Shown piece after piece: positions 17-47,783 of a DNA stretch of 51,598 nt. The notes below the pieces were generated by a model that did not search any database, was not told the origin of the DNA, and saw only the letters and a program-made list of their open reading frames with translations. The position numbers and the translations under genes were made by a program. The DNA comes from an uncultured Treponema sp. (lineage in GTDB: Bacteria; Spirochaetota; Spirochaetia; Treponematales; Treponemataceae): positions 1 through 51,598 of the forward strand of contig CAMOWQ010000003.1 of NCBI GenBank assembly GCA_946628495.1, read 5' to 3'. How positions within the stretch are numbered: position 1 is the stretch's first letter; every line of letters starts with the position of its first letter.

Positions 17-131
17 GAGGGGCGAATTTCAAAAACACTCCAGGTTGCTGCCGCATGAGCGGCAACGTATATAATTACAAGGCAAACTGGCGTGTAGCAG
101 GCGAGCCTGCGATTTTGAAATTCGAACCTCG
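17..131 (+). repeat. Family A palindromic repeat, copy 1
   Basis: An imperfect palindrome of about 115 bp. The outer arms GAATTTCAAAA (26-36 region) and TTTTGAAATTC (114-125 region) pair, and inside lies the hairpin TTGCTGCCGC-atga-GCGGCAA. It aligns with the copies at 4859-4980 (reverse orientation) and 47658-47783. Shared blocks, in order, are CAAAAACA, a GCCGC/GCGGC hairpin, an AT-rich spacer with AATAGTT or ATAATTA, GTGTAGC or ATGTATCGC, and TGCG-N-TTTTG. The stem sequence differs from copy to copy but stays paired. Size and shape recall ERIC-type intergenic repeats. No coding potential was seen at positions 1-200. Confidence 0.7.
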
Positions 132-200
132 ACCGGTAGTATTTTTCTTTTGGTGTATTCATGTTTATAATGCGTTTGCCCTGTAGAAAAGTATGGGGAT

Positions 201-272
201 TTATTCCTGTTTTAGTAATTCTGCGTATTTATACATATTTCCCATGATGATGAAATAACGGATATTATTCAT
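201..272 (-). CDS. Tiny ORF (23 aa) resembling the C-terminus of the upstream lipoprotein
   Basis: A 23-codon ORF starting ATG at 272 with an AGGAAG Shine-Dalgarno about 8 nt upstream and a TAA stop at 201. It follows the lipoprotein gene at 334-1005 on the same strand and is separated from it by a degenerate family R hairpin element. Its start, NNIRYFIIMG..KYAELLKQ, resembles the end of that lipoprotein, TNIRYYISVG..KYLQKWDQLKQ, with the same spacing of I-R-Y, G, K-Y and K-Q. It could be the remnant of a duplicated, mostly deleted paralogue, or a real short peptide. Its size makes the gene call uncertain; the similarity itself is visible. Confidence 0.35.
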   Translation of the reverse strand: MNNIRYFIIMGNMYKYAELLKQE

Positions 273-280
273 ACTCTAAA

Positions 281-324
281 CTTCCTTCTGTGTAAGGTCG
301 TACTGTAGGCTGGCGGTGAATAAA
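281..324 (-). repeat. Family R intercistronic hairpin-SD element, degenerate copy
   Basis: Read on the minus strand this is a weak GC hairpin (CCGCCAGCCTACAGTACGACC) followed by CTTACACAGAAGGAAG and then the ATG of the tiny ORF. It aligns with the better copies at 4241-4330, 20717-20760 and 24499-24590, especially in the block CCTTACACAG. The stem has several mismatches, so it is probably a decaying copy. As with the other copies, it sits between two genes on the same strand. Confidence 0.45.
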
Positions 325-333
325 CATTTTTTT

Positions 334-1005
334 TTATTGTTTTAATTGATCCCACTTTTGAAGATACTTTTTAGATTCACCGACGCTGATGTAATAGCGT
401 ATGTTTGTCATTATTCCGTCATATTTTTGTCCGTCAATCGCTCCTGGTTTTGTTTTAGCTTCTAACATAACAGAAAGCCAGTTTCCCGGACGTTCTGTAA
501 ATAAATATTTTCCCTCGGAAAAGTTCTTTTTCTGGTTATTGTCAATAATAGGTCCCATGGCTAGTACTTCATATTCTATTATGGGATTTACATTTGTTAA
601 ATCCAGGTTAGATGAATACATAGTATTTCCGTCCTTATCTTTTATACATATATGATTAAGCTGGCTTTCTATTATGTTTTGACAATAGAGGACTTTATCA
701 AAACCTGAATCATGTTTACTCCATTTGTCAATTGATAAGAACTCGTCTTCGTAAGTTGGCAGCGAATGAAAATGCAGGGTTTCTAAAATCTCATTAGAAT
801 CTGGAATGAATTCTGGTATTATTTTTGTTTCAGATTTTCCATCTGCATATTCTAATTCAGCGATTATTTCGTCTTCCATAAAATTTAAAATGAATAATTT
901 TGCATCTTCATTGTGCAGCAGAAAAGTTTTTCGCCATCCAGGTTCTTCACAGGATGATAGAATGAGAATTAAAAACGAAAGAAAAAGTATCTTTGTTTTT
1001 TTCAT
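334..1005 (-). CDS. Hypothetical lipoprotein
   Basis: A 223-aa protein with an N-terminal lipoprotein signal: MKKTKILFLSFLILILSSC has a short basic start, a hydrophobic core and a lipobox ending in cysteine 19. The start at 1005 is preferred over an upstream one because GGAGG lies 8 nt before it and the signal peptide begins exactly there. The mature part (EEPGWRKTF...) is polar with no transmembrane segment and no domain I recognise. It is presumably anchored in the inner or outer membrane facing the periplasm. A perfect 16-bp palindrome lies just upstream and may control it. Downstream are a degenerate family R element and a tiny ORF resembling its C-terminus. Function unknown. Confidence 0.75.
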   Translation of the reverse strand: MKKTKILFLSFLILILSSCEEPGWRKTFLLHNEDAKLFILNFMEDEIIAELEYADGKSETKIIPEFIPDSNEILETLHFHSLPTYEDEFLSIDKWSKHDSGFDKVLYCQNIIESQLNHICIKDKDGNTMYSSNLDLTNVNPIIEYEVLAMGPIIDNNQKKNFSEGKYLFTERPGNWLSVMLEAKTKPGAIDGQKYDGIMTNIRYYISVGESKKYLQKWDQLKQ

Positions 1006-1033
1006 ATTGTCTATCCTCCAATAAAAATATATT

Positions 1034-1049
1034 TGCGAAAATTTTCGCA
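1034..1049. promoter_or_regulatory. 16-bp perfect palindrome upstream of the lipoprotein gene
   Basis: TGCGAAAATTTTCGCA is a perfect inverted repeat ending 29 bp before the start codon at 1005. Its position between the likely promoter and the Shine-Dalgarno sequence suggests an operator for a dimeric repressor. The regulator is not identifiable here. Four short TGTAATA or GGTAATA-type repeats lie further upstream at about 1094-1155 in AT-rich DNA; their role is unclear. Confidence 0.4.
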
Positions 1050-1163
1050 TCTACATAATTTTGAGCACAGAAATTCTGAAAAAGCAAGTTTTTAAATGTA
1101 ATAAAATGTCATATTTTGTAATAAAAATGTAATATTTAACGTCATAAAAGGTAATATTGCTGT

Positions 1164-1883
1164 CTATACCCCGTTATTTTTCCTGCTTAAGCCTGCAACT
1201 TTTGTAAAAATCTTTTCCAGATATTGAGCCTCGGATTCGGAAAGGCTTGCGCGGGATAAAATGCTTCTCCAGAAAATTTCCATGTCTTCGCGGCCCGGCA
1301 TCTTGAAAAATCCAATCTGCTCTAAATTGTCTGTAATGCATTCTACAGTTTTGTCGATTCGTTCAAGCGAAAGAGGTTTATAACCAACGATGTTGCCGAG
1401 TTTCTGTCGGAAAAAGTGATAGCACATAATCTGAACTGCATGAGAAAGATTTAGTGAACCAAAGTCTGAACTGGATGGAATTGTTACGCCAACGGTACAC
1501 TGATCCAGCTGTTCGTCGGTAAGGCCTGTGCGTTCGTTGCCAAAAATAATTGCTGCTTTTCCGTCCGGCATTTCTGAAACAATTTTTGTGAATTCTTCTG
1601 GAAGAAGGAGTTTGCCCCGTTTTTTTCCGCGGCGTCGTGTGGTTCCTGCAGAAATAACGCAGTCAGCTGTTGCGTCTTTTATGCTTTCGTAAAAAACGGC
1701 GTTTTCAAAAATATAGGCTGCGTGTATTGCAAGAATGTTTATGCGTTCAATATCGTAATCTTCTTTTTTACCGACGATGCGAAGGCAATGGATATCGTTG
1801 TTTGCCATTGCCCTGCATGCAGCCCCGATGTTTCGGCTTTCGTCGGGATGGTCTAATACTATAATGATGTCATCTAAAGTCAT
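1164..1883 (-). CDS. tRNA/rRNA 2'-O-methyltransferase, SpoU/TrmH (SPOUT) family, TrmJ-like
   Basis: A 239-aa SPOUT-class enzyme that would transfer a methyl group from S-adenosylmethionine to a ribose 2'-OH in the cytoplasm, most likely position 32 of tRNA if it is a true TrmJ. The three family motifs are visible: motif 1 with N and R near residues 17-25 (SRNIGAACRAM), motif 2 IIFGNERTGLT at about 112-122, and motif 3 IPSSSDFGSLNLSHAVQI at about 136-153, which forms the trefoil-knot cofactor pocket. Length and N-terminal layout match TrmJ rather than TrmH. It follows the P-type ATPase gene by 19 bp but has its own TATAAT 6 nt before the ATG, so it is probably transcribed separately without a leader. 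Target position cannot be read from sequence. Confidence 0.85.
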   Translation of the reverse strand: MTLDDIIIVLDHPDESRNIGAACRAMANNDIHCLRIVGKKEDYDIERINILAIHAAYIFENAVFYESIKDATADCVISAGTTRRRGKKRGKLLLPEEFTKIVSEMPDGKAAIIFGNERTGLTDEQLDQCTVGVTIPSSSDFGSLNLSHAVQIMCYHFFRQKLGNIVGYKPLSLERIDKTVECITDNLEQIGFFKMPGREDMEIFWRSILSRASLSESEAQYLEKIFTKVAGLSRKNNGV

Positions 1884-1889
1884 GACATC

Positions 1890-1895
1890 ATTATA
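1890..1895 (-). promoter_or_regulatory. Extended -10 promoter, probable leaderless start of the TrmJ-like gene
   Basis: On the minus strand TGC-TATAAT lies with only 6 nt (GATGTC) between the -10 box and the ATG, and there is no Shine-Dalgarno sequence. Transcription would begin at or within 1-2 nt of the start codon. Confidence 0.6.
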
Positions 1896-1902
1896 GCAGA
1901 TT

Positions 1903-4233
1903 TTAATTTTTTCTTAAAAGTCTTAATGAGTTTAGTACTGCAAGAATTGTAACTCCAACATCACCGAAAACGGCAACCCACATATTGGAAATTCCTGCTG
2001 CACTTAAAATAAGGATTGCGCCTTTTATGCTGAGTGAACCGATAAGGTTTTCGTAAACAATCCTGAGGGTTTTGCGGGAGATTTTAATTCCTTCTGCAAT
2101 TTTAGAAGGCTTATCTTCCATAATGATGATATCGGCTGCTTCTACCGCTGCGTCAGAACCCATTGCTCCCATTGCAATTCCAGCATCTGCACGGGCGAGA
2201 ACTGGTGCATCATTTATACCGTCGCCTGTGAAAATGAGGGTTCCTCGTTTTTTGCCGTCGCGTTTTAATTCTGCAAGCATTTCTTCTACTTTAGAAAGTT
2301 TGTCGCCGCTAAGAAGCTGGCCGAAAGCTTTTGTTATGCCGATTTTTTTTGCAACAGCCTGTGCCATTCTATCGTTGTCGCCTGTAAGCATTACGATGTT
2401 TTCTACGCCTACAGCCTTAAGATTTTTTACGGCAAGTTCGGAATCTTCTTTGATTTCGTCGGCAATTACAATATGCCCTGCGTATTTTCCGTTACATGCA
2501 ACATGTACTATTGTACCATCCTGATGTTCCGGGCATTCATCATACTGAATGTTGAATGCGTCCATGAGTTTTGTGTTTCCTGCAAGAACGTTTTTGCCAT
2601 CAACATCGGCTTTTATACCTTTACCTGCAATTTCTTCAACATTTTTAATGGAAATATTATCGCAGCAGGTTCCATGATGTGCTTTTTTAAGCGATGCAGA
2701 AATTGGATGTGTCGAAAGCATTTCTGTGTGAGTTGCAAGGGCAAGCAGTTCCTGTTCTGTGATGGAAGCATCTGTTGCGTGAATATGTGTTACAACAAAG
2801 TTTCCTTTTGTTAAAGTTCCTGTTTTATCGAAAACGGCAGTCTTTGTTTTTGCAAGGGCTTCCAGATATGTTGAACCTTTTATAAGAATACCGTGTGATG
2901 CATTTGCCGTAATTCCGCCGCAGAAGGAAAGTGGAATTGAAATTACGATTGCGCAAGGACATGAAACTACAAGGAACATGAGGGCTCTGTATACCCAGCC
3001 GCTCCAGTTTGCAGCCCAGCTCCAGTTGCCGTTTATAAAGCCTGAAATTACAGGTGGAATTACTGCGAGAATGCAGGCAGCTGTAACGACGATTGGTGTG
3101 TAAACTTTTGCAAAGCGTGTTACGAATTTTTCGGATTTTGTTTTGTTTTCGGTTGCATTTTCTACAAGTTCGAGAATGCGTGAAAGTGCTGAATCCTGAA
3201 CCTGACGGGTCGTGCGGATTTCCAGAACACCCTGCTTGTTTATTGAACCTGCAAGTACTTCAGAACCTTTTATAACTTTTACAGGAGTTGATTCACCGGT
3301 TAATGCTGATGTATCTATAAAACTTTCGCCGTTTTCTATAATACCATCGATTGGAATACGGTCGCCAGGTTTTACAACGATTATAGAGCCGATTTTTACT
3401 TCTTCTGGTGAGATACTGATTAATTTTGCAGAAGAACCTTCTATGCTTTCTGCCATGCTGGTTGTGCCTGTAAGAGTTCCGTTTGTTCCTGCAATTTTAA
3501 GCAGTGCATGGTCTGGTCTCAATTTTGAAATTTCTTCTATAGAGTCGCGTGATTTATCAACAGCGTAGTCTTCGAATTTTTCTCCAACCTGATACAAAAT
3601 CATGATGGCTGTTGCTTCTTCAAATTTGCCGAGAATCATTGCACCGATGGATGAAACTGCCATAAGAAACTGTTCGTCCATAAGGTTTCCGTGTGTTACG
3701 TTGTAAAGTGCACCTATTACAAGGTCTTTTCCGCAGATGAGGTAAGCTATAAGGAAGAATACAAGGGAAAGTGCCTTTGAAAGTCCAAAAGGAAGTGCTG
3801 AGGTAAGCCCTGCAAGCCAGGTGTCGAGCGGCAGATGTTCGGTAAGGATTCCAAGTGCAAAAAGGATTGCAGAAAGGATGATTGCTTTTACTGAAACTTC
3901 TTTTTCTTCGTCATCTTCGTCTCCATCGTGGTGATGATGATGACCGTGAGAATGTCCGCAGCCGCATTCGTCGTGATGATGGTGGTGTTCGTGTTCCTCA
4001 TGATCTTGTTCTTCGTGATGTTCATGTCCGCATCCGCAGTGTTCGTGCTCGTGTTCTTCATGTTCATCGAGATGATGATGTTTATGTTCTTTGTGAGAGT
4101 GTTTGTGTTTATCATGAGAGTGTTCATGATGTTCTTCGTGATTATGTTCATGCTTATGCATGTGTTCTTCGTGGTTGTGAACATGCTGATGTTCTTCATG
4201 TTCGCAGTATTCTTCTTCGTGTTCTGTACTCAT
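1903..4233 (-). CDS. P1B-type heavy-metal ATPase (Zn/Cd/Pb exporter) with His-rich N-terminus
   Basis: A 776-aa inner-membrane ATPase that exports soft divalent cations, most likely zinc or cadmium. The start at 4233 gives MSTEHEEEYC and has AGAGG in front; an upstream ATG would translate a repeat element. The first ~110 residues are a His/Glu/Asp/Cys tail with two CGCGH motifs, replacing the usual GMxCxxC domain. Then come membrane segments, the actuator SALTGES, the transport motif SCPCAIVIS, the phosphorylation site DKTGTLTKG, the HP motif (THPISASLKK), TGDGINDAP, and a final helix GDVGVTILAVLNSLRLL whose aspartate matches the ZntA metal ligand. It is co-transcribed with the CadC-type repressor upstream. 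The His tail may buffer or sense zinc. Confidence 0.93.
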   Translation of the reverse strand: MSTEHEEEYCEHEEHQHVHNHEEHMHKHEHNHEEHHEHSHDKHKHSHKEHKHHHLDEHEEHEHEHCGCGHEHHEEQDHEEHEHHHHHDECGCGHSHGHHHHHDGDEDDEEKEVSVKAIILSAILFALGILTEHLPLDTWLAGLTSALPFGLSKALSLVFFLIAYLICGKDLVIGALYNVTHGNLMDEQFLMAVSSIGAMILGKFEEATAIMILYQVGEKFEDYAVDKSRDSIEEISKLRPDHALLKIAGTNGTLTGTTSMAESIEGSSAKLISISPEEVKIGSIIVVKPGDRIPIDGIIENGESFIDTSALTGESTPVKVIKGSEVLAGSINKQGVLEIRTTRQVQDSALSRILELVENATENKTKSEKFVTRFAKVYTPIVVTAACILAVIPPVISGFINGNWSWAANWSGWVYRALMFLVVSCPCAIVISIPLSFCGGITANASHGILIKGSTYLEALAKTKTAVFDKTGTLTKGNFVVTHIHATDASITEQELLALATHTEMLSTHPISASLKKAHHGTCCDNISIKNVEEIAGKGIKADVDGKNVLAGNTKLMDAFNIQYDECPEHQDGTIVHVACNGKYAGHIVIADEIKEDSELAVKNLKAVGVENIVMLTGDNDRMAQAVAKKIGITKAFGQLLSGDKLSKVEEMLAELKRDGKKRGTLIFTGDGINDAPVLARADAGIAMGAMGSDAAVEAADIIIMEDKPSKIAEGIKISRKTLRIVYENLIGSLSIKGAILILSAAGISNMWVAVFGDVGVTILAVLNSLRLLRKN

Positions 4234-4240
4234 ATATTTT

Positions 4241-4330
4241 CCTCTTGTGTAAGGCCGCGCGGCAGGCGGCCGGTGTTCTATTGGAAAGCGTAAAGAAAAT
4301 TGCGCATGCAATTTTTAGCCTTACTTCCTG
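4241..4330 (-). repeat. Family R intercistronic hairpin-SD element, copy between arsR and the ATPase
   Basis: Read on the minus strand it has two hairpins: an AT-rich one, AAAATTGC-atgc-GCAATTTT, then ACGCTTTCCAATAGAACAC, then a GC-rich one, GGCCGC-ctgccgc-GCGGCC, followed by CTTACACAAGAGG, which carries the ribosome-binding site of the ATPase gene. The copy at 24499-24590 shares both flanks, while its GC stem is AGCCCGC/GCGGGCT, so both sides of the stem have changed together. It fills the space between two genes of one operon. Confidence 0.7.
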
Positions 4331-4333
4331 TGT

Positions 4334-4696
4334 TTAATTTAATTCTGCAATATGTTCTATTCCGCATTCGATAATCTGCTGAACATGTTCATCTGCAAGG
4401 GAATAGTAAACAACTTTTCCGTCGCGCCTTGTTTTTACAAGATTCGATTCCCGCAATACCGCAAGCTGATGCGAAACTGCCGAAATTGACATGTTCAATA
4501 ATGATGATAAGTCGCATACGCAAAGTTCTTTTTTATCCAAAGCAAAAAGGATTTTGAATCGCGTATTATCACCAAAAATTTTATAAAAATTTGCAAGACG
4601 ATTGGTAGTTTCTTCAGACAGCATACAATTGCGTACTTCGGAAACAGCGTCTTCGTGAATGATTTCGCATTCGCAATTTATTTCGTTTTTCTTCAT
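4334..4696 (-). CDS. ArsR/SmtB-family metal sensor repressor (CadC/CzrA type)
   Basis: A 120-aa winged-helix repressor that releases DNA when it binds metal. Both known site types are present. The alpha3N/thiolate site has Cys8 and Cys10 in the N-terminal arm plus Cys59 and Cys61 in ELCVCD on the recognition-helix approach, as in CadC. The alpha5 zinc site has D102, H104, H115 and E118, with the spacing seen in SmtB. GGAGGA precedes the start. It is the first gene of an operon with the P-type ATPase, and three TGAA/TTCA inverted repeats lie upstream, so autorepression and induction by Zn(II), Cd(II) or Pb(II) are likely. Having both sites complete leaves the preferred metal uncertain. Confidence 0.93.
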   Translation of the reverse strand: MKKNEINCECEIIHEDAVSEVRNCMLSEETTNRLANFYKIFGDNTRFKILFALDKKELCVCDLSSLLNMSISAVSHQLAVLRESNLVKTRRDGKVVYYSLADEHVQQIIECGIEHIAELN

Positions 4697-4738
4697 TGTT
4701 CCTCCGTTTTACAAAATATCGTATGTATATTTATTACT

Positions 4739-4809
4739 TGAATGTTTATTCATTTGAATATTTATTCAATTGACAGTGATATAATATAAACATTTGAAAG
4801 TTTGTTCAA
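4739..4809 (-). promoter_or_regulatory. Promoter and three metal-sensor operators of the repressor/ATPase operon
   Basis: Three inverted repeats occur: TGAATGTTTATTCA at 4739-4752, TGAATATTTATTCA at 4755-4768 and TTGAAAGTTTGTTCAA at 4794-4809. They resemble SmtB/CzrA half-sites (TGAA..TTCA). On the minus strand TTGAAC at about 4804-4809 and TATTAT at about 4781-4786 are 17 bp apart and could be -35 and -10, so one operator overlaps the -35 and two lie downstream of the -10. Confidence 0.6.
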
Positions 4810-4858
4810 GTGAATTTGTACAAGTATAAAAAATATGTTTTATATATATAAGACTCAC

Positions 4859-4980
4859 GGTCACGATTAATGATGCAAAACCGCGCAATAATACGCTACA
4901 CGTTTTTTGTTGTAGAGAAACTATTTAATGCCGCTTTGCGGCGCAACAAAAAAAGTGTTTTTGCATCATGAATCGTGACC
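4859..4980 (-). repeat. Family A palindromic repeat, copy 2
   Basis: The outer arms at 4859-4880 and 4959-4980 pair over 22 bp with one mismatch (GGTCACGATT.ATGATGCAAAA). Inside are the hairpins CTACA..TGTAG (4897-4916) and GCCGC-tt-TGCGGC (4930-4942). In reverse orientation it aligns with the copies at 17-131 and 47658-47783. It lies between the metal-operon control region and the RND pump, in a divergent intergenic region. Confidence 0.75.
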
Positions 4981-5031
4981 TCGCGTCAGACATATAAAAA
5001 AAATGTTTTATACATATGCCTGTACAAAAAA

Positions 5032-5157
5032 ATGCGTAGCAGGGTTCGATTTTTGCGTAGCATTGAACCCGATAGAGCTAATGAACGCCGAAAACGCCGG
5101 CGGAGCGAAGCGGCGAGGGTTCTCGGCGGAGCAAAAAATCGGTTCCTGCGAGAGCAT
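5032..5157. repeat. Second type of ~126-bp palindromic element
   Basis: The left arm ATGCGTAGCAGG..CGATTTTTGC (5032-5056) is complementary to the right arm GCAAAAAATCGG..CCTGCGAGAGCAT (5131-5157) with small internal loops. The interior is GC-rich with CGCCGGCGGAGCGAAGCGGCG. It is about as long as family A but not alignable with it. It is flanked on both sides by near-identical AT-rich blocks ATGTTTTATA(T/C)ATATG at 5003-5018 and 5183-5196, and the same block also precedes the family A copy at 4834-4847. The short reading frames here are not convincing genes. Confidence 0.5.
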
Positions 5158-5377
5158 TTTTTTTAGTATGCCTATATATTTAATGTTTTATATATGCTTG
5201 CCGCCCGAGCGTTGAGCAGTGCGTAAGCAGTCCGAAGGACCGGCCGTAGGTAAGCTGCGAAAGGCGAGTTGGTGTTTGGACTTGCGCCGGTTTTCCTTAT
5301 TAAAAATTTTTAAAATTGTGAAGATTTATAGGAAATTCATTTGAATTATTATTTAAGCACGGTTAAAGTTTTAATTG
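5158..5377. other. Gene-free spacer before the RND pump
   Basis: There is an AT-rich block, then about 100 bp of higher GC (5198-5297) containing the small hairpin GTCCGAAGGAC, then AT-rich DNA up to the pump start. I could not identify an RNA gene: the conserved motifs of RNase P, tmRNA and the SRP RNA loop are not present. No clear promoter or Shine-Dalgarno sequence for the next gene was found. Confidence 0.4.
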
Positions 5378-6493
5378 ATGGTAAAGAAGGCTTCGAAAAT
5401 TATACGGTTTTTTGTTTTTATTGCTGTTGCTGCGGTTTTTGTCGTGCTGCTTTTTCTTATTACGAATAAAAAAGATGTTTCTGAGAAGTCTGAAATTCTT
5501 CCTGCTGTTGTTGTACAAAAGCCTGTGCGTTCCAATATTGTTGAATCTGTAACTATTAGCGGTTATGTAGAAGCAAAGGCGATGATTCCTGTTGTTCCTT
5601 TTGTTTCGGGGACTATTACTGAATATTATGCGGTTGCGGGAAATCTTGTTCATAAGGATTCGCTGCTTGCAAAAATAGATGATGCTCCGTTCAGGCAGCA
5701 GATGCTTCAGGCTCAGGCGGCGTATTTTGCGGCAAAAAGCACGTTTGACCGTGTTGAAAATCTCTACAAATCTGGGGCAACGACTCAGCAGAATTATGAT
5801 ACGGCAAAAGCTCAGTATGATGCCTCTACTGCTCAATATGATCTGGCGAAACTTCAGATGGATTATACGGAAGTAAAATCGCCTGTTGAAGGTACTATTC
5901 TGATTGCATCTCAGGCGGTTGGAAGCATTGGTACTTCGGAAACTCCTGTTGCGGTTATTGCAGATTTGAATTATCAGGTTGTAAGGCTTAAGGTTCCTGA
6001 AAAATATTTTGATTTATTTAATCTTGAAAAAGATTCTCTTGTTGTAACTGTTACTCGTCCTGCCGAAAAAGGCATGTTTGAAGATGCAGTTACTGCTGCT
6101 TCTATAGAAAATATTGCTCCTTACATTTCGCCGCAGAGTAAGAATTTTGAAGTTGTATGCCGTCTTGAAAATCCTGGGGAACGTTTTAGACCTGGAATGT
6201 TTGTAAAGGTTCAGGTTGCGTATAAAACCTATAATGATGTGCTTGTTCTTCCAATGCAGACTAAAAAACTTGACGGTAGTTTTTATATTTACGATGAAAA
6301 ATCTCAGACTGTGCATTTTGTAATGCCGCCGTTTTCTGCTGATGACGGAAACAATTTTATTGTTGATGAAAAATATGCTGATACCTGGTTTGTTATTGAC
6401 GGTCAGAATTTTTTATTTGATGGTCAGAAAGTAAGGTTGTATGAAGAAGCTCTTGATGAGGTGTTGAGCGAGGTGAAGAGTGAAAATCTCTGA
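5378..6493 (+). CDS. RND efflux periplasmic adaptor (membrane fusion protein, HlyD/MdtA family)
   Basis: A 371-aa adaptor bridging an inner-membrane RND pump to an outer-membrane channel. An N-terminal anchor helix (about residues 9-30) has no lipobox. It is followed by a lipoyl half-motif (GTITEYYAVAGNLVHKDSLL), a coiled-coil hairpin rich in Q and A (about 105-170), the second lipoyl half (SPVEGTILIASQAVGSIGTS), a beta-barrel domain and a membrane-proximal domain with LENPGERFRPGMFVKV. The start is uncertain: the ATG at 5378 directly follows a TTG, and no good Shine-Dalgarno is visible. It overlaps the RND gene by 14 bp, so the two are co-translated. There is no outer-membrane component in this operon; the TolC-like gene at 18409 is a possible partner. 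Confidence 0.9.
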   Translation: MVKKASKIIRFFVFIAVAAVFVVLLFLITNKKDVSEKSEILPAVVVQKPVRSNIVESVTISGYVEAKAMIPVVPFVSGTITEYYAVAGNLVHKDSLLAKIDDAPFRQQMLQAQAAYFAAKSTFDRVENLYKSGATTQQNYDTAKAQYDASTAQYDLAKLQMDYTEVKSPVEGTILIASQAVGSIGTSETPVAVIADLNYQVVRLKVPEKYFDLFNLEKDSLVVTVTRPAEKGMFEDAVTAASIENIAPYISPQSKNFEVVCRLENPGERFRPGMFVKVQVAYKTYNDVLVLPMQTKKLDGSFYIYDEKSQTVHFVMPPFSADDGNNFIVDEKYADTWFVIDGQNFLFDGQKVRLYEEALDEVLSEVKSENL

Positions 6494-9665: not shown

Positions 9666-9750
9666 AAATGACTACTTAAAAAGGTAGTATCTTTTTCGCT
9701 TTTCGGTGTTAAAATTTGTTTTGCATTTTATGTATTAAAAAGGGTGCTCT

Positions 9751-33580: not shown

Positions 33581-33588
33581 CAAGATTA

Positions 33589-34511: not shown

Positions 34512-34512
34512 A

Positions 34513-34586
34513 TGATCCGGATGCGATTCGAACGCACGACCTTCCGCTTAGGAGGCGGACGCTCTATCCAGCTGAGCTACTGGATC
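34513..34586 (-). tRNA. tRNA-Arg, anticodon CCU
   Basis: 74 nt, complete cloverleaf. Acceptor GATCCAG with CCGGATC (one A-C mismatch at pair 6-67), D-arm GCTC/GAGC, anticodon stem TCCGC/GCGGA with loop CTCCTAA giving anticodon CCU (reads AGG), variable loop AGGTC and T-arm GTGCG-TTCGAAT-CGCAT. Discriminator base A; CCA is not encoded. Confidence 0.95.
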
Positions 34587-34599
34587 ATAAGTAAAAAGA

Positions 34600-34605: not shown

Positions 34606-34650
34606 CATTAAAAATCGGAAGTTCTGCAAGACACACGAAAATAACTACGG

Positions 34651-34656
34651 TATAAT
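34651..34656 (+). promoter_or_regulatory. -10 box of the membrane LuxR gene, near-leaderless
   Basis: TATAAT ends 9 nt before the ATG at 34666, with AAGACA 17 bp upstream as a weak -35. There is no Shine-Dalgarno sequence, so the leader would be 0-3 nt. Confidence 0.5.
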
Positions 34657-34665
34657 GTTAAAATA

Positions 34666-35463: not shown

Positions 35464-35497
35464 CCTGGTTATTTTTTTCAGTAACCAGGTTATTTCG
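35458..35497 (+). terminator. Rho-independent terminator after the membrane LuxR gene
   Basis: AATAACCTGGTTA pairs with TAACCAGGTTATT around a loop containing a T-run; further Ts follow. The stem is 13 bp and starts at the stop codon. Confidence 0.85.
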
Positions 35498-35584
35498 TTC
35501 AAAATGCAGGGTCTGCTCCTATTCAGTACTAGACTTTGAAAATATAATTTAAGCATAAACTTTATATTTTCGGAGTGTAGGTCT

Positions 35585-36826: not shown

Positions 36827-36838
36827 AGAGGTGACTCT

Positions 36839-38041: not shown

Positions 38042-38062
38042 TTATTGTAGAATAATTCTGTA

Positions 38063-39739: not shown

Positions 39740-39774
39740 ATAACACCTCTTTAAAAAGTTGTGCAAAGTTTATT

Positions 39775-40644: not shown

Positions 40645-40692
40645 AATATGTTCCTAAAAAATGAATTTATATAAAATTTTAAATGAAAAATA

Positions 40693-41892
40693 TCAAAGGA
40701 TTCCAGGTTTTTTGTGCAGAAGAAACAGATATTCTTTTACATGAATGTCTCTTCCGCTTAAATTTCTGGAGCCGCGGAAAGTATTATATTTTGATTCAAG
40801 AACCGAAACGCTGCCGTATTTAGAAAGCATGGCAATCATATCCTCTTTTGAAATAAAACCTTCAGAATTAAACGAAATGAGTATGAATTTTGCTCTTAGT
40901 GAGGCAATCAAATCTTCGAAAACGCCCGAAATTTGTTTTTTCTTGTTGTATGCAGAACGGTTCCAGTCTGCCGGAATGCCTGAAATTCTGCTTATGTGTT
41001 CGCGGTCGGGCTTCTTGTAATCGGCAATAAGATTCAGCATAAAATAGTTAGAACCATACGGATGCTGATTATACGGCGGATCAAGATAGGCAAGGTCGTA
41101 TTCAGGACAAAAATCGTAAAGTTCTGTTGATTTTGCAAGCGTGTTTGCATCTTTGTTGAATACTTTAAAATCGCACGTAAAATTTGAAAAAACAGGAAAA
41201 GGCAGGCATATTTTACCGGTAATGCGCGACAAAGCATTCTGCCCGCTGCCTCCAAACTGCCCGATTCCTGTTTTTGAATTTTTATAAAACCCTTTAAAAA
41301 TTCCAGCCGTATTTGCATGAATTGAAGCTTCGGAAAGTAAAGGCGCGGTAAAAAACTTCTGATACTGTTCTGGAATGTCCGACGCAATATTCTGACGGAT
41401 TACATCTATATAATTTGCATTGTAATTTGTGTAAAAGCAGCGGTCTTCTTTATGAATATTCTGAATATCAGCGGGAGAATAAAGCTCTGAAATAAAGCCC
41501 GGGTTTTTATATGTGCCATTTTTGCGTTGAATTTCTAGGTCTTTTACCTGCGCTGCAGTTTTTTCTGTAAGATTTTGATGCAGTTCTTTTAGTTTTTCTG
41601 TAAGTTCCGGCTCGGGATTTGAAAGGTAGCAGTTGTTTATAAGACATGAATATTTTTCCAAATCATTTACTGCAAGTTGTTGCGAAAACTGTTTAAGATA
41701 TCTGGCCACAATTCCGCTTCCCGAAAAAACGTCAAGACAGTTCAACTTTTTTTTACCAGATTCGTTGCAGACTGTCTGAATGCCTTTGTCTATAAGAGGA
41801 AGCAGTGCCCGTTTGTTTCCAATATATGTAATGAGCTGAGTTTGCAGGTATTCGGGATTTTCTTTGTAAAATGCAGGAACTTGTGTATTCAT
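40693..41892 (-). CDS. D12-class DNA N6-adenine methyltransferase, orphan
   Basis: A 399-aa methyltransferase. The SAM motif reads LDVFSGSGIVARYLK (residues ~53-67), and the catalytic motif IV is YLDPPYNQHPYGSNY (~285-300). A start similar to Dam-type enzymes (TQLITYIGNKRALLPLI) and a target-recognition segment between the motifs support the D12 class. No restriction endonuclease or specificity subunit is nearby, so it is a solitary modification enzyme or a remnant of a system. It starts 72 bp from the divergent PurH homologue. The recognition site cannot be read from sequence. Confidence 0.88.
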   Translation of the reverse strand: MNTQVPAFYKENPEYLQTQLITYIGNKRALLPLIDKGIQTVCNESGKKKLNCLDVFSGSGIVARYLKQFSQQLAVNDLEKYSCLINNCYLSNPEPELTEKLKELHQNLTEKTAAQVKDLEIQRKNGTYKNPGFISELYSPADIQNIHKEDRCFYTNYNANYIDVIRQNIASDIPEQYQKFFTAPLLSEASIHANTAGIFKGFYKNSKTGIGQFGGSGQNALSRITGKICLPFPVFSNFTCDFKVFNKDANTLAKSTELYDFCPEYDLAYLDPPYNQHPYGSNYFMLNLIADYKKPDREHISRISGIPADWNRSAYNKKKQISGVFEDLIASLRAKFILISFNSEGFISKEDMIAMLSKYGSVSVLESKYNTFRGSRNLSGRDIHVKEYLFLLHKKPGIL

Positions 41893-41928
41893 AAATTATG
41901 TTTATTATTTTATCAAAATATTTTTACA

Positions 41929-41957
41929 TTGTGAATTATATAAATTTTTGTTAAAAT
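41929..41957 (+). promoter_or_regulatory. Promoter of the PurH-like gene, probable leaderless start
   Basis: TTGTGA (41929-41934), a 17-bp spacer and extended -10 TGT-TAAAAT (41949-41957) place the transcription start at about 41963-41964, which is the A of the start codon. No Shine-Dalgarno sequence is present. Confidence 0.6.
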
Positions 41958-41963
41958 GATTTT

Positions 41964-43649
41964 ATGTCTAGAAAAGCAATAATCCAAGTTGAAAATTTTG
42001 ACAAGGTTAGTGAATTTGCACGTTATCTGGTTTCTTCAGGATGGGAAATTCTTTCTGCCGGTAAAACAGCGTCCTTTTTTAGAAAAGAACGTATTCCATT
42101 TACCGAAGAACAGTCGCTTTCTGATGCAAAAATTGATTTAAGGGCTTCTTCTAATTTAATGAGGAGTATTATTTCCGCGGATATCAGTAAGCCTAATTCT
42201 GATTTTAGAAATGTATCTTTAAATCACTCTGATGAATATCCTGCTTCGCTCGAAGCTCTTGTTGGTAATACGCAGGATACTGAATCTTTAACGGGCGATG
42301 TTTTTATTGTCTGTATGAATTTGTATCTTCCTTCTGAACCTGTTACTAATACTTCGCTTTTTTATTCAACTGAATTCTTCTATTCAACTGTTATAAGAAA
42401 TGCCTGCAGCAATTACGAAAATGTTATGGTAATTACCGATCCGGAAGATTATAAGGAATCGATGGTCCTTTTGCGAACCGATAATGTTTCTAAAGAATTC
42501 CGTTTTTATCTTGCGGGCAAGGCTTTGAATTTCCTTTCTGCTTATGAAGGCACTCTTTCTTCTTTTATAATGGATACTTCTCCGTATGCCCCTGAATTCA
42601 TTCCGTATCTTTCATTCCCGTTAAAAAAATATATGGAACTTCATGGCGGTTCAAATCCTCAGCAGGTTTCATGTTTATATAATTTTACTTCTGACCGTGG
42701 TGCTTTGAGCGGTTTTAAGAAACTTCAGGGAAAAGAGCTTACTTACAATATAATTTCTGATTTATCTGTTGTATGGGATTTGATAAGTACGCTTTTTATT
42801 AATTTAAAGAATCAGTTTACGGTAAAAAGTATTAACAGCGAAGGATATGAATTTACCTCGCAGTTTACACCTCTTTCGGGAACGGTATTTACTGTTGCCG
42901 TTAAAAACAGGGCAATAATAGGGGCTGCGCTTTCCACAAATGTTCTGGATTCTTTTAAGAAAACTTATACTTATGATTATGAAATTATAAATGAAGTTGT
43001 TCTTGGATGCAGTGCTGTTATTGATGAGGAAGCTGCAATGGAAATTGCAAAGGAAGATTTTGCTGCAATAATTGCTCCTGGATTTACTGACGAAGCGCGC
43101 GAAATCTTTTTGCAGAATAAAAATATCAGGCTTATTCCAACCGCCCGTGTTTCTATTCTTCCGTATGAAATTCAATTGATAAATGGCGGACTTCTTTTTC
43201 AGTCAAGAGATAAAGTTCTTTTTGATCACTGGAATGTTAAGACTAAAATGCGTCCTTCGCAGAAACAGACTGACGAAATGTCACTTGGTATGCTGATTGC
43301 ATTGCAGTCGCGTTCGTATACAGCTGTTCTTTTGCGTTCAAATGCAATTGTTGGAATTTCGCAGGGATGTACGTCGGTAAACAAAGCTGTACGTAATGTA
43401 TTAAACGAAGCAAAAGATTATGAACAGCGAAACCGTGATTCAAATCAGTTTGGCGCAGATACTCTTGCCGATATTCTTGTAAGTGATTATGCAATTCCTT
43501 TTACAGACGAAGTTCGTGAACTTATTGAAAAAGGTGTAACATCTATTATTCAGACTGGCGGAACTTCTACCGATGATGAATTTATAAAATTCTGTGATGA
43601 ACGTGGCGTTGTAATGGTGTTTACAGATATGACGCATATTTCATTCTGA
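41964..43649 (+). CDS. Divergent PurH homologue, probably not catalytically conventional
   Basis: A 561-aa protein with the two-domain layout of PurH (IMP cyclohydrolase, then AICAR formyltransferase). Matches include KVSEFARYLVSSGWEILSAG at the start, LHGGSNPQQVSCLY, LQGKELTYNIISDL, FAAIIAPGF, the Q-x-S-x-x-A area and the C-terminal DYAIPFTDEVRELIEKGVTS..GVVMVFTDMTHISF. However, the cyclohydrolase motif GRVKTLHP is replaced by DLRASSNLMRSII. The formyltransferase KH pair (chicken K266-H267, in K-H-x-x-P) is replaced by VKNRAIIGAAL, so the catalytic histidine is asparagine. I infer a repurposed or inactive paralogue. It is monocistronic with a terminator-like hairpin downstream. Confidence 0.8.
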   Translation: MSRKAIIQVENFDKVSEFARYLVSSGWEILSAGKTASFFRKERIPFTEEQSLSDAKIDLRASSNLMRSIISADISKPNSDFRNVSLNHSDEYPASLEALVGNTQDTESLTGDVFIVCMNLYLPSEPVTNTSLFYSTEFFYSTVIRNACSNYENVMVITDPEDYKESMVLLRTDNVSKEFRFYLAGKALNFLSAYEGTLSSFIMDTSPYAPEFIPYLSFPLKKYMELHGGSNPQQVSCLYNFTSDRGALSGFKKLQGKELTYNIISDLSVVWDLISTLFINLKNQFTVKSINSEGYEFTSQFTPLSGTVFTVAVKNRAIIGAALSTNVLDSFKKTYTYDYEIINEVVLGCSAVIDEEAAMEIAKEDFAAIIAPGFTDEAREIFLQNKNIRLIPTARVSILPYEIQLINGGLLFQSRDKVLFDHWNVKTKMRPSQKQTDEMSLGMLIALQSRSYTAVLLRSNAIVGISQGCTSVNKAVRNVLNEAKDYEQRNRDSNQFGADTLADILVSDYAIPFTDEVRELIEKGVTSIIQTGGTSTDDEFIKFCDERGVVMVFTDMTHISF

Positions 43650-43671
43650 TTTTTTTTTTGGAGAGTAATAT

Positions 43672-43711
43672 TCAACGGCATTCACCCAAAAGAATGCCGT
43701 GTTTTTTATTT
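43672..43711 (+). terminator. Terminator-like hairpin between the PurH homologue and mraY
   Basis: ACGGCATTC-acccaaaa-GAATGCCGT is followed by GTTTTTTATTTTT. The Shine-Dalgarno of mraY (GGGAGGA) follows immediately, and no promoter fits between. Either mraY depends on read-through, or a promoter at TAATAT (about 43666) makes the hairpin a 5' attenuator. Confidence 0.75.
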
Positions 43712-43725
43712 TTGGGAGGATTAAG

Positions 43726-44802
43726 ATGATTTTTTCTTTAGGTGAATTTTTGCAGCAGTTTTGGGGACCGGGAAGACTTCTTCAGTCGTATGCGGTTCTT
43801 ATTGCCCTTGCCTTGTATTCAGGATTTTTTCTTTCTGTAAAATTAATTCCAAAATTTTATGACTTTTTACCGCATGACCGTGGCCGCGATTTTGCATTAA
43901 AAGAAAATTCTGAAGCTGCAAAAGGTAAACCGACGGGAGCTGGTTCTGTATTCATAACTCTGTTCTGTGTGTTGTGCATAATCATTGTTCCAATGAATTT
44001 TTACCGTGGAGCGGTTGTTGCACTTACATGGCTTACTATGCTTACAGGTTTTCTTGATGACCGAAGTGTAACAAGCTGGGGTGAATATTTGAAAGGTTTT
44101 CTTGATCTTGTAATAAGTGTTGCGACTGCCTTTGTTCTTTGCTACGGATTAAAAAAAGCTTCTTCTGACGGCGTTATTTATTTCTGGATGCCGTTTATTT
44201 CAAATCATATTGCAGTTCATCCTGCTGTGTTCATTGTTATCTGTACGATTATGCTCTGGGCTTCAATCAATACAACAAACTGTACCGACGGTGTTGACGG
44301 ACTTTCTGCATCGCTTGTGCTTATTGGTGTACTGACGCTCGGTAGTGTTTTTTATCTTATTCTTGGACATAAACAGATTTCTGCATATCTTCTTGTACCG
44401 CACATTCGTTATGGAGCAAACTGGGCTGTTATGATATTCGCGTTGGGCGGTGTATTGATGGGTTATCTATGGCACAACGCTTTTCCAAGTAAATGTCTTA
44501 TGGGTGATGCAGGAAGCCGTGCACTCGGATATTTTATAGGCGTTTGCGTAATGGTTTCGGGCAATCCGTTCCTTATTCTTGCAACTTCAACTGTTATCTT
44601 TATAAACGGTGGAATGGGACTTTTAAAAGTATTCCTGCTTCGTTTCTTTAAGATAAAGATTTTTGAAAATATTCGTTTTCCATTGCATGACCATATGAGA
44701 AAGAATCACGGCTGGTCACCTACACAGGTTCTTATTAAATTTATGATTATGCAGATTCTGATAACATCTGTTGTTCTTGGAATCTTCTTTAAGATTAGAT
44801 AA
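43726..44802 (+). CDS. Phospho-N-acetylmuramoyl-pentapeptide transferase
   Basis: A 358-aa polytopic inner-membrane enzyme making lipid I from UDP-MurNAc-pentapeptide and undecaprenyl phosphate. The start at 43726 has GGGAGGA 6 nt upstream; an ATG 27 nt earlier lies in the hairpin tail. Family motifs: GKPTGAGSVF, LTGFLDDRS with the DD pair, NTTNCTDGVDGLSAS, the catalytic aspartate in CLMGDAGSRALGYF, and the C-terminal FPLHDHMRKNHGWSPTQV, which corresponds to the HHH-containing loop with one histidine changed to aspartate. About ten TM helices. It is isolated from a mur/fts cluster, unlike in many bacteria. Confidence 0.93.
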   Translation: MIFSLGEFLQQFWGPGRLLQSYAVLIALALYSGFFLSVKLIPKFYDFLPHDRGRDFALKENSEAAKGKPTGAGSVFITLFCVLCIIIVPMNFYRGAVVALTWLTMLTGFLDDRSVTSWGEYLKGFLDLVISVATAFVLCYGLKKASSDGVIYFWMPFISNHIAVHPAVFIVICTIMLWASINTTNCTDGVDGLSASLVLIGVLTLGSVFYLILGHKQISAYLLVPHIRYGANWAVMIFALGGVLMGYLWHNAFPSKCLMGDAGSRALGYFIGVCVMVSGNPFLILATSTVIFINGGMGLLKVFLLRFFKIKIFENIRFPLHDHMRKNHGWSPTQVLIKFMIMQILITSVVLGIFFKIR

Positions 44803-44807
44803 AAAAA

Positions 44808-44849
44808 ATGAGGTGGTTTCGACAAGTTCAACCACCTCATTTTTTTTTA
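44808..44849. terminator. Bidirectional terminator between mraY and the M20 peptidase
   Basis: AAAATGAGGTGGTT and AACCACCTCATTTT form a 14-bp perfect stem around an 11-nt loop, with A-runs and T-runs on both sides. It serves the converging genes on both strands. Confidence 0.9.
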
Positions 44850-46061
44850 GTTCTTAAATACTTCAACGAGTGTTTCTGCGTCACGGATAATGTTATCTAT
44901 GATACAGTATTCATTTTGCTGATGTGCCTGATCGTCGAGGGAACTCCATACTACGGCTTCAATGCCTTCGCGCCTTAATTCTGCGCCAACCGTTCCACCG
45001 CCAATGCCTATAAATTCCGGTTCAATGCCATGTGTTTTTTTGATTGCATTTGCAAGAATTTTTGCAGCTTTTGAATCAGCTGATGTTGCAGGCGATTCAG
45101 ATTTTTGCGGTGTTGAATAGTCAATTTTTACACCGTATTCTTTTTCTACATCGCGGCAATGTTTTTCGACTTCTGCAAGTACGTCCGAAAGTTTATAGCA
45201 TGGAAGAATTCTGCAATCCATATAGAATGTATCTTCTCCCGGAATGATGTTTATGCTTTGAACGTTTGCCTCGCGTTTTGTCGGCTGGAACGTGGAGTAG
45301 TTTGGTTCAAAAAGACTGTCTTTCTTGTCAAAAACTTTTTCCAGATTGTGCAGGCGTACAGAAAGGTCGCAGGCCGCAAGGCATGCATTAGCACCGCTGT
45401 CTGGGCGTGAACCGTGCGTCTGTTTGCCTTTTACATGAACTTTAAGCCACAGAAGATTTTTTTCGGCAATTTCGATTGTACGTCCTTCTTTGTCGCCGCC
45501 GTCAGGAATAATAACAATGTCGCTTTTGTTGAACAGATTTGTGTTATTCAAAAGCCATATCATTCCGTATTCGCTGCCGTTTTCTTCATCAGCAGCAAAA
45601 AGAAGTTTTATTGTATGTTCAGGTGTTATGTCATTCTCTAAATAATAAAGGGCTGCAAAAACTGCTGAACACAATCCCTGCTGGTCATCTTCTACACCGC
45701 GACCGTAAAGTTTGCCGTCTTTTTCGACAACTTTCCATGGATCTGTATTCCAGAGCGACAAATCTCCGACTGGTACTACATCAATATGTGCTATAACCCA
45801 GATTGCATAATCATTTTGTTTGCCAGGAATTTCTGCAACGATGGACGGACGTGAACCTGAAGATACACGGCTGTCTGGTGCTTCGTATCGGCTTATTTTT
45901 GTAAAGCCTTTTTCCTTGAGCCATTTTTCAAGAGCGTCCGCTTTTTTTGTTTCTCCGTCGCCGCCACCTTCCGGGGCAATTGCAGGAATTGAAGTAAGCA
46001 GAGTTTCGAGTGCAACCATGTCGTTTTTGCGGCCGGTTAAAAATGCATGTGAATCAGTCAT
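44847..46061 (-). CDS. M20-family metallopeptidase (dipeptidase/Sapep-like)
   Basis: A 404-aa cytoplasmic zinc peptidase. Metal and catalytic residues are visible: histidine in IAHIDVVPVG (~93), aspartate in GRGVEDDQQG (~124), the glutamate pair in AADEENGSEYG (~157-158), aspartate in IPDGGD (~181) and a glycine-rich GIGGGTVGAELRREG near the end. The dimerisation domain (~195-320) contains VHVKGKQTHGSRPDSGANA. GGAGG precedes the start. Likely substrates are dipeptides or acylated amino acids. It is 35 bp from galE on the same strand. Confidence 0.92.
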   Translation of the reverse strand: MTDSHAFLTGRKNDMVALETLLTSIPAIAPEGGGDGETKKADALEKWLKEKGFTKISRYEAPDSRVSSGSRPSIVAEIPGKQNDYAIWVIAHIDVVPVGDLSLWNTDPWKVVEKDGKLYGRGVEDDQQGLCSAVFAALYYLENDITPEHTIKLLFAADEENGSEYGMIWLLNNTNLFNKSDIVIIPDGGDKEGRTIEIAEKNLLWLKVHVKGKQTHGSRPDSGANACLAACDLSVRLHNLEKVFDKKDSLFEPNYSTFQPTKREANVQSINIIPGEDTFYMDCRILPCYKLSDVLAEVEKHCRDVEKEYGVKIDYSTPQKSESPATSADSKAAKILANAIKKTHGIEPEFIGIGGGTVGAELRREGIEAVVWSSLDDQAHQQNEYCIIDNIIRDAETLVEVFKN

Positions 46062-46095
46062 TGTTTATTATGCCTCCACGCTGTAAAAAAATTCC

Positions 46096-47058
46096 TTAGT
46101 TTTTGTAAACTTCCCAGGTTGTTTTTACAAGAGTGTCTACATCAGAATATTTTGGTTCCCAACCAAGCAGTTTTTTTGCAAGTGCTGATGTTGCATAAAG
46201 GCTTGCAGGGTCTCCTGGTCTTCTTGCAACATCTTCTGCAGGAATCGGTTTGCCTGTAATCTTTCTTGCAGCGTCTATCAGCTCTTTTACAGTTGTACCT
46301 TTTTCTGTTCCAAGATTGAGCTTTAAGCTTTCGTTGTTCTTTGCAATATATTCAAGAGCCATTACGTGAGCACGAGCAAGGTCTGTAACATGAACGTAGT
46401 CGCGGATACATGTACCGTCGCGTGTATCATAATCGTTTCCGAAAATTTTAAGTTCGCGCTGACCAAGTGCTGCTTCCATTATACGTGGAAGAAGGTTTTC
46501 TGGTTTCTGTTCAAGTCCGCGGATTTTTCCTTCCGGGTCATAACCTGCTGCATTAAAATAACGGAGAGCTGCAAATTTTAGGCCTTTAATCTGGTCGTAC
46601 CAGTCCATGAATTCTTCAATCTTAAGTTTTGTAAATCCATAATAATTGATTGGTTTTTGTGGATGATTTTCGTCAATTGGAAGATACTGAGGTTCTCCGA
46701 AAGTTGCGGCAGAAGAACTGAAAATCATTTTAAGGCAGTTGTGTTTTACTGCTGCATTCATAATGTTAAGTGTACCTGTGATGTTATTTACAGAATATTT
46801 TTCAGGTTTTACCATTGATTCGCCAGCTGCTTTAAATGCTGCAAGATGAACGAAGGCATCAAATCCCTGTGCAAATGCTGCGTCCAAATCTTCCTGAATA
46901 AGAATATTGCCATAGATAAAATCATTTTCCGGGAAAAGGTTGCATCTTAAACCGCTGCTCAAATTATCAAAAACAGTAACTTTATGTCCTGCTTTCATCA
47001 TTTCTTTTACAACATGACTTCCGATATAACCGGCACCGCCAATAACTAATACTTTCAT
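46096..47058 (-). CDS. UDP-glucose 4-epimerase
   Basis: A 320-aa NAD-dependent short-chain dehydrogenase-type enzyme interconverting UDP-glucose and UDP-galactose. Rossmann motif GGAGYIGSHVVKEM (residues 7-20); catalytic serine/threonine in FSSSAATFGEP (~113-123); the YxxxK pair in YYGFTKLKIEEF (~138-149); RYFNAAGYDPEG (~166-177); RRPGDPASLYA (~281-291). Length matches bacterial GalE. GAGGAG lies 9 nt before the start. It would supply galactosyl units for glycolipids or surface polysaccharide. Confidence 0.96.
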   Translation of the reverse strand: MKVLVIGGAGYIGSHVVKEMMKAGHKVTVFDNLSSGLRCNLFPENDFIYGNILIQEDLDAAFAQGFDAFVHLAAFKAAGESMVKPEKYSVNNITGTLNIMNAAVKHNCLKMIFSSSAATFGEPQYLPIDENHPQKPINYYGFTKLKIEEFMDWYDQIKGLKFAALRYFNAAGYDPEGKIRGLEQKPENLLPRIMEAALGQRELKIFGNDYDTRDGTCIRDYVHVTDLARAHVMALEYIAKNNESLKLNLGTEKGTTVKELIDAARKITGKPIPAEDVARRPGDPASLYATSALAKKLLGWEPKYSDVDTLVKTTWEVYKN

Positions 47059-47082
47059 AGAAAAATCTCCTCTTAATTAAGA

Positions 47083-47571
47083 TTATATTTTGTTTTTATA
47101 TATCCTTATGATAATGTACGGTTCGTTTTTTATGATTTCGCCAAAATCTTCCGAAAAACTGCTGTATTCTGAATTTGCCTTTACCCAAATTGAATCAATT
47201 ATTTCGTTCTGCGATAAATCATTCTGTTTTTCAAAAAACTGTACTTTTTTTAAGCACATATCACTGTTTTCGCCCCATGCAACGGAAATATTTCCTGCTT
47301 CCGGGAAAAATTTTGCTGCACGTTCAAGCTGATTGTCTTTCTGTCCGTCGATTATATAATCTACCCATTCAGGAAGTTCTGCTCCAAAGCCTTTGTATTG
47401 CCAGTCAATGTATTTTGGAATTTTTGGCAGAACTTCTTCAGAAACCTGCTCCAATCCTTCGGCATGAGCTGCAATATCTTTGCCTGTATTATCTGAATTG
47501 CCCTGCGTAGTTTTAGATGCACAGGAAATCATCAGCATACATAAAAGCACAAAAAATAAGAAACGTTTCAT
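47083..47571 (-). CDS. Hypothetical lipoprotein
   Basis: A 162-aa protein. The start at 47571 gives the lipoprotein signal MKRFLFFVLLCMLMISC (cysteine 17); the longer open frame upstream runs through a repeat element and is not credible. The mature part includes KYIDWQYKGFGAELPEWVDYI, a W/P-rich motif seen in some spirochaete lipoproteins of unknown role. There is no Shine-Dalgarno sequence; TAGAAT lies 8 nt before the ATG, so the mRNA may be leaderless. It ends 25 bp from galE on the same strand. Confidence 0.7.
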   Translation of the reverse strand: MKRFLFFVLLCMLMISCASKTTQGNSDNTGKDIAAHAEGLEQVSEEVLPKIPKYIDWQYKGFGAELPEWVDYIIDGQKDNQLERAAKFFPEAGNISVAWGENSDMCLKKVQFFEKQNDLSQNEIIDSIWVKANSEYSSFSEDFGEIIKNEPYIIIRIYKNKI

Positions 47572-47579
47572 TGATATAC

Positions 47580-47585
47580 ATTCTA
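47580..47585 (-). promoter_or_regulatory. Extended -10 promoter of the lipoprotein gene
   Basis: On the minus strand TGA-TAGAAT is 8 nt before the ATG; no Shine-Dalgarno sequence fits. The -35 region is weak. Confidence 0.45.
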
Positions 47586-47657
47586 TCACAAATTGGATTT
47601 GGATTAAAGTATGGCAGGACAAAGGCATTATAAAACTGTTTAGTAAAGTTGGCGCGA

Positions 47658-47783
47658 GGAAACAGTTAATGTTACAAAAACATTCTTTTTGCGGTTGCCG
47701 CATTTGCGGCAAGTAAAATAGTTGCTTTATCACAAAAAGCATGTATCGCATTATTGCGCGATTTTGTAACAGGAATTGTGACC
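47658..47783 (+). repeat. Family A palindromic repeat, copy 3
   Basis: The outer stem GTTACAAAA/TTTTGTAAC (47671-47679 and 47762-47770) is extended by weaker pairing to 47658 and 47783. The inner hairpin TTGCCGC-attt-GCGGCAA lies at about 47694-47712. It aligns with the copies at 17-131 and 4859-4980 and has a different but still paired outer stem. It lies between two divergent genes and fills most of a 311-bp gap. Confidence 0.75.

Follow-up and report, generated by a model that had tools for sequence, protein, structure and literature searches.

Why do three copies of a folded repeat, alike in outline and different in the sequence of their paired stems, lie within a single contig of an uncultured Treponema sp.? 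The contig (CAMOWQ010000003.1 of GenBank assembly GCA_946628495.1; contig C3 of an assembly of 2.57 Mb in 203 contigs) was analysed over its full 51,598 nucleotides, referred to below as the window. A first-pass annotation made from the letters alone had described the three copies with their boxes and stems, all of which are present in the sequence. We put at roughly 0.6 the probability that the repeat is a miniature inverted-repeat transposon, likely moved by ISAs1, that belongs to a Treponema-like genus and has an interior folding into a three-way junction, and that in three genomes copies without transposon ends, found mostly close behind stop codons, likely serve as structured transcription terminators.

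Inverted ends and target duplications

Full copies of the element are bounded by 20-bp inverted repeats of the CAGGGCAAACGCATTATAAA type and its inverse, and those with recognisable ends are mostly 210-217 bp long. With up to three mismatches allowed, the terminal 20-mer occurs at 74 places in the source genome by comparison with one place for the reversed control, and searches with copy 3 and copy 1 of the window as queries recovered further copies there. Of the 74 termini, 24 or more are found no further than 60 bases from a contig start, and the window itself begins inside copy 1, indicating that the assembly was interrupted by the repeat. Full copies in the source genome are flanked by 10-bp repeats that are exact at L080 (GGGTGATAAT) and L081 (TGTCGAGCGG) and have one mismatch at L079.

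In a second genome, G168, 18 miniature copies were read, of which 10 have perfect 10-bp target duplications, three have duplications matching at 9/10 positions, four have duplications of 8-9 bp in a shifted register and one (L292) has none. Two identical 149-bp copies that lack stem 4 of the fold described below (L285 and L286) are flanked by perfect duplications; of the 101-bp copies without the core, L296 has a perfect duplication and L297 one of 9/10. As target duplications persist around derivatives that have lost the core in part or in whole, the fold is not needed for movement. Copies of 335-336 bp (L287, L288, L289, L294 and L295) contain a nested insert of approximately 120 bp with inverted ends GGATGTCCAATAAGT, and this composite element has target duplications of its own at several G168 sites. 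The inverted ends and 10-bp duplications bear out the first-pass suggestion of a mobile palindrome; the outline given there had omitted the 20-bp ends and the ISAs1 link, which emerged in the follow-up.

Variant forms were also seen in the source genome. L079, L080, L081 and L082 are hybrids in which the GCCGC hairpin links two half-elements of different subtypes in head-to-head orientation, an arrangement that template switching would produce. L012 and L014 have an altered interior with CTCCCTAGGTTTTG in common, and L012 carries an extra structured insert. The right end at window positions 164-183 and 47810-47829 reads TTTATAATGC, and each end bears an outward-facing TATAAT that might form part of a promoter for adjoining genes.

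Ends common to the element and ISAs1 insertion sequences

ISAs1-family transposase matches were found in 22 of 146 genomes of the genus (15 above the curated cut-off). A 1266-bp ISAs1 locus (L255) has element ends with two and one mismatches, and a 1278-bp locus (L256/L300) has ends with three and three mismatches (CAGGGCAAACGCATGTAAAA), flanked by a 10-bp target duplication, GCTTGACAAT, equal in length to those of the miniature copies. At L279 one element end is exact and the transposase is broken, while L275 is a fragment with about 440 bp between ends. The ISAs1 loci L263 and L280 have a variant end, CAGGGCCTCCGCATTATAAA, that is similar to the CAGGGCTTCCGCATTATAAA ends seen on some miniature copies, so variation in the outermost stem partly reflects end subfamilies. 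Element ends were absent from ISAs1 loci L257-L259 and others. G168 holds both the miniature copies and an ISAs1 partner in one genome; of its three insertion-sequence copies, L300 has a perfect duplication, L302 a shifted one and L301 none. Given these common ends, the element is a miniature transposon, most likely ISAs1-moved, and the transposase would most likely act on its ends in trans.

Two contigs, L161 and L205 (Parachlamydiaceae metagenome-assembled genome), start with one and the same ISAs1-like end, and a reading frame, judged by eye, stops inside the inverted repeat. A plasmid search with the ISAs1-like end from L161 returned short weak matches only.

A conserved branched fold

The core of the element spans about 146 positions and forms a three-way junction. 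From outside to inside it consists of stem 2 (GGC/GCC), an internal loop, stem 3 and the junction with stem 4 and hairpin 6; stem 4 contains the GCCGC/GCGGC hairpin and an unpaired ATARTTNC motif. The internal loop runs, in order, G·A, a pair that is mostly C-G, G·G, A·G, an A-T/G-C pair that covaries, a pair that is mostly G-C and, last, tandem G·A/A·G. Across 68 copies 93.8% of cells pair and two-sided change occurs at 42 of 49 pairs, counts that lean towards the structure as the alignments (A4-A7) were fitted to models with a derived or supplied structure. The covariation score was 0.521, by comparison with 0.172 for shuffled and 0.050-0.083 for slid controls, and exceeded 500 of 500 shuffles. 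The first-pass expectation of covariation is thus borne out by these controls; some of the double-sided differences, however, stem from whole-arm exchange or from subfamilies instead of pair-by-pair compensation, which that annotation had overlooked.

For counts of non-canonical pairs, 19 of 89 rows (hybrids, truncated or degenerate copies) were dropped and the remaining 70 were dereplicated at 90% identity, which left 49. Several non-canonical positions are nearly fixed in these 49 copies: G·A in 48, A·G in 47, tandem G·A and A·G in 43 each and T·C in stem 4 in 42. In stems 3 and 4 and both hairpins G·T mismatches outnumber A·C by 56 to 12; in 40 copies from genomes G086, G024 and G004 the ratio is 51 to 5, with 52 purine-purine and three pyrimidine-pyrimidine mismatches. 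By genome, G·T exceeds A·C by 33 to 10 in G086 and by 87 to 4 in G010, the latter being one ancestral state counted many times. This one-strand bias of the pooled copies thus identifies the favoured folding strand as the one beginning GGCGCGA.

An undescribed structured RNA is plausible on these grounds, given that tolerated mismatches favour one strand and that Rfam holds no match; a protein-binding site, the remaining first-pass suggestion, is possible. At the gathering threshold Rfam 15 gave for the window a tRNA only, a gene on the minus strand at 34513-34586, and a permissive search with seven loci at E <= 0.5 gave no family match. We found no earlier description of the element in the open-licence literature, subscription papers being outside this search.

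Deviations from the group consensus at paired positions differ between sets of copies: two-sided deviations number 0/37 in G010 (23 copies), 9/59 in the G168 type (12 copies) and 136/215 in G086 (20 copies), part of this contrast being due to the greater divergence of the G086 copies and to block exchange. Mutations in recently spread copies are thus mostly uncompensated.

Copies without ends lie mostly at gene ends in three genomes

Twenty copies of G086 lack the terminal repeats and have flanks unrelated to one another. Their positions and those of the corresponding copies in G024 and G004 were compared with gene calls (longest open reading frames found by script); these position tests involve small numbers, and some of the copies are orthologous between the three genomes. 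The 39 copies of these genomes lie in stop/stop gaps in 19 cases, stop/start in 14, start/stop in four and start/start in two. This set includes four copies with outer-stem scores of 13-14; a set of 36 end-less copies that leaves those out gave 18, 13, four and one, respectively, with a stop codon on the 5' side in 31 and on the 3' side in 22, and one divergent. The median distance to the facing stop is 24 bp on the 5' side and 14.5 bp on the 3' side. Between tandem genes (39-copy set), 14 copies are sense and four antisense. Among 31 other gaps of at least 30 bp, a small background drawn from the same regions as the copies, five are stop/stop, 17 tandem (both kinds) and nine start/start. A T-rich stretch follows the stem (at least five T in eight) in 31 of 43 copies of the three genomes, and an A-rich stretch precedes it (at least four A in seven) in 36 of 43.

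Five orthologous site pairs were found. At L391/L377 the element is identical at 146/147 positions and the flanks at 80% and 91%; at L068/L070 the figures are 137/142 for the element and 77% and 82% for the flanks, with changes comprising one compensated pair, two one-sided exchanges between Watson-Crick and G·T pairs and one loop change. At L384/L367 (119/146) and L396/L372 (114/147) the site and outer boxes are kept and whole arms differ. The L384 site also varies between genomes: the element is present at one of 30 loci with the neighbouring gene (G004 itself), and G086, which is outside that sample, has it too; G024, with a neighbouring protein that is 99% identical, has a different GC-rich structured block instead, and G002 (L406) an apparent ordinary hairpin-plus-T terminator. 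This variation fits an exchangeable 3'-end module.

The GC-rich block is itself found at L405 (G024) and L422 (G018), just 3' of the stop codon of one LUD-like gene where G004 and G086 have the element. It is of the GGGGGAAGTCTCCCCC...GCGGGGGAAGCCCCCGC type and may represent another family of exchangeable repeats at 3' ends.

Distribution

The many copies that had been predicted for the genome were found: a first covariance model, of the core, gave 36 matches in it, a figure above the number of distinct copies, since a hybrid is matched once on each strand. With this model (up to 39 candidates scored per genome), matches occurred in 43 of 79 genus genomes sampled, the source genome included; the near-complete genus genomes G065 and G072 had none. 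A DNA search found copies in 16 of 35 other genomes of the genus and 0 of 23 outside it. A second model (up to 10 candidates scored per genome) was applied to a class sample of 297 genomes, of which 10 had a match, namely nine of the 20 listed genomes of the genus and a single genome outside it; the latter match was weak and partial (46 positions, E 6.5e-4). Integron attC sites, in which pairing is likewise conserved over sequence, were considered and dropped, as copies of the element are scattered singly over contigs and carry target duplications.

Named records with element ends are mostly Treponema or Spirochaetia, several of them from rumen. The 20-bp end is also present in Bacteroidales, Dysgonamonadaceae, Lewinella and Parachlamydiaceae assemblies; those of them that were folded have other interiors. 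L180, L190, L192, L225 and L248 (Bacteroidales Kf353_bin105) and L166 (Bacteroidetes) have the same 20-bp ends around other interiors, of 145 bp and, in one of 216 bp, with a different long fold. This suggests either ends common across phyla or mis-binned contigs.

The three copies of the window

At E <= 1e-4 the family covariance model has exactly three matches in the window, at 5-146 (plus strand), 4847-4988 (minus) and 47650-47795 (plus). These are the places named by the first-pass annotation, although the limits given there were too narrow. Copy 1 occupies 1-183 on the plus strand, cut at left by the contig edge, and its right terminal inverted repeat, TTTATAATGCGTTTGCCCTG, is exact at 164-183. 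Sequence and fold place its stem 3 inner arms (GAATTTCAAAA/TTTTGAAATTC) at 24-34 with 113-123, and its hairpins TGCCGC/GCGGCA and GCAGG/CCTGC at 49-54 with 59-64 and at 97-101 with 106-110. Copy 2, on the minus strand, extends from about 4815 to 5028, approximate limits read by eye from the outer pairing and the fold of L009; its outer arms have diverged from the canonical terminal repeat. Its conserved core (4847-4988) scores 134 bits with covariance model R1 and includes the stem ATGATGCAAAA/TTTTGCATCAT at 4969-4959 with 4880-4870. Copy 3 is a whole 215-bp element at 47615-47829 on the plus strand, with inverted ends at 47615-47634 and 47810-47829 (one and two mismatches), a core at 47650-47795 (R1, 158 bits) and the stem GTTACAAAA/TTTTGTAAC at 47671-47679 with 47762-47770; its flanks show no clear target duplication (6/10 bases matching).

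Discussion

We infer that mobile copies land between genes and then decay, and that end-less copies are kept at gene ends, where the fold would be transcribed as RNA, would stop transcription and would perhaps protect the 3' end of the upstream message. The order could be either way: the mobile form may have given rise to the end-less one, or ISAs1 ends may have captured a host terminator between them.

Several results weigh against this proposal. The source assembly, which is 82% complete, has no ISAs1 transposase match. A terminator role is ill suited to the window itself: the genes flanking copies 2 and 3 are divergent, and all three copies have 5' or 3' neighbours unsuited to a terminator. 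Among all sampled copies after deduplication, those with outer ends (outer stem at least 14/16) lie between convergent genes in 1/21 cases and divergent genes in 10/21, whereas those without (12 or less) do so in 23/63 and 10/63, seven copies scoring 13 being left out; a pooled set of 57 copies has no orientation bias (<E> 20, >E> 15, <E< 13, >E< 8, ?E< 1), and a bias appears only once end-less copies are taken separately. A simple scan for terminators, which allows loops of 3-8 only, found none in the one copy to which it was applied. At the orthologous pair L120/L121 conservation of the element (136/146 identical, 93%) does not clearly exceed that of the flanks (92% and 81%), and the changes in the element comprise one two-sided, one pair-breaking and one pair-making. 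The mismatch bias is also uneven: stem 2 and its loop have 17 A·C and nine G·T in the 49 dereplicated copies, mostly at one pair; among G168-type copies, which spread recently, G·T is not in excess (13 by comparison with 16 A·C); and stem 4 is nearly without wobble pairs (two G·T and one A·C in 713 cells), which is unusual for an RNA helix.

That scarcity of wobble pairs would also agree with a fold that has no function, in which the palindromes stay perfect, and their arms are exchanged, through template switching and gene conversion among copies, leaving double-sided changes as a mutational by-product. The hybrids joined at the GCCGC hairpin, and the exchange of inner arms as blocks at two orthologous sites, point the same way. 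Such correction would, however, erase the G·A, A·G and T·C mismatches that stay fixed, and neither the one-strand bias of tolerated mismatches nor the largely uncompensated state of recent copies favours it, though the sets of copies differ in depth of divergence; we consider it unlikely. It is also improbable, in our view, that the element is purely selfish, its fold serving the element alone (regulation of its transposition would be an example) and its end-less copies being remnants that survive best at gene ends. The patchy distribution (43/79 genomes), the target duplications and the absence of copies from G065 and G072 would suit a selfish element, but the 149-bp and 101-bp derivatives retain target duplications without part or all of the core, and end-less copies keep a fold from which they gain nothing by transposition at these ends.

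A further possibility is that the fold acts as DNA, as a single-strand hairpin or cruciform bound by protein. The very few wobble pairs in stem 4 would agree with this, as would the lack of a promoter common to the copies, none having been seen by eye. The sense-strand position after genes in tandem pairs and the T-rich stretch after the stem suit a transcript instead, and we regard action as DNA as very unlikely.

The miniature transposon with a terminator-like interior can be set beside several known systems. It has the 20-bp ends and 10-bp target duplication of ISAs1-family insertion sequences and their miniature derivatives, but differs from them in having no transposase gene, in its conserved branched interior and in the end-less copies kept at gene ends. 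End-less copies resemble intrinsic terminators in their A-tract, stem and T-tract close behind stop codons; the latter have a short hairpin, by comparison with a branched core of about 146 positions and conserved internal loops. ERIC sequences, generally regarded as non-autonomous mobile elements, are imperfect palindromes scattered through intergenic regions, and the likeness is by description alone, the present element having been found here in one Treponema-like genus only. MITEAba12 of Acinetobacter is reported to be a miniature element of 111-114 bp with ends common to a co-resident insertion sequence, 9-bp target duplications, weak predicted secondary structure only and no predicted terminator (PMC6382973). 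The two are alike in insertion-sequence ends and target duplications, and the Treponema element is longer with a conserved fold. REP elements are intergenic palindromes of 20-40 bp with suggested roles in termination and mRNA stability (PMC3733652); the present element, at about 215 bp, falls outside that size range, and it also has 20-bp ends and makes target duplications.

A more specific proposal, which we offer tentatively and hold to be possible rather than probable, is that a structured RNA of one genus, new to description, is carried between ISAs1 ends and afterwards persists without them as an exchangeable branched 3'-end module, in which a terminator is combined with internal loops that bind a protein or ligand and from which whole arms pass as blocks between copies.

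Miniature transposons are often regarded as inert. The element would account for assembly breaks at many contig ends, and its strongly covarying fold has no counterpart in Rfam. Its family forms a natural series, from recent, decaying copies to end-less copies that keep the fold at gene ends, in which the passage from a mobile element to a regulatory 3' end would be directly testable.

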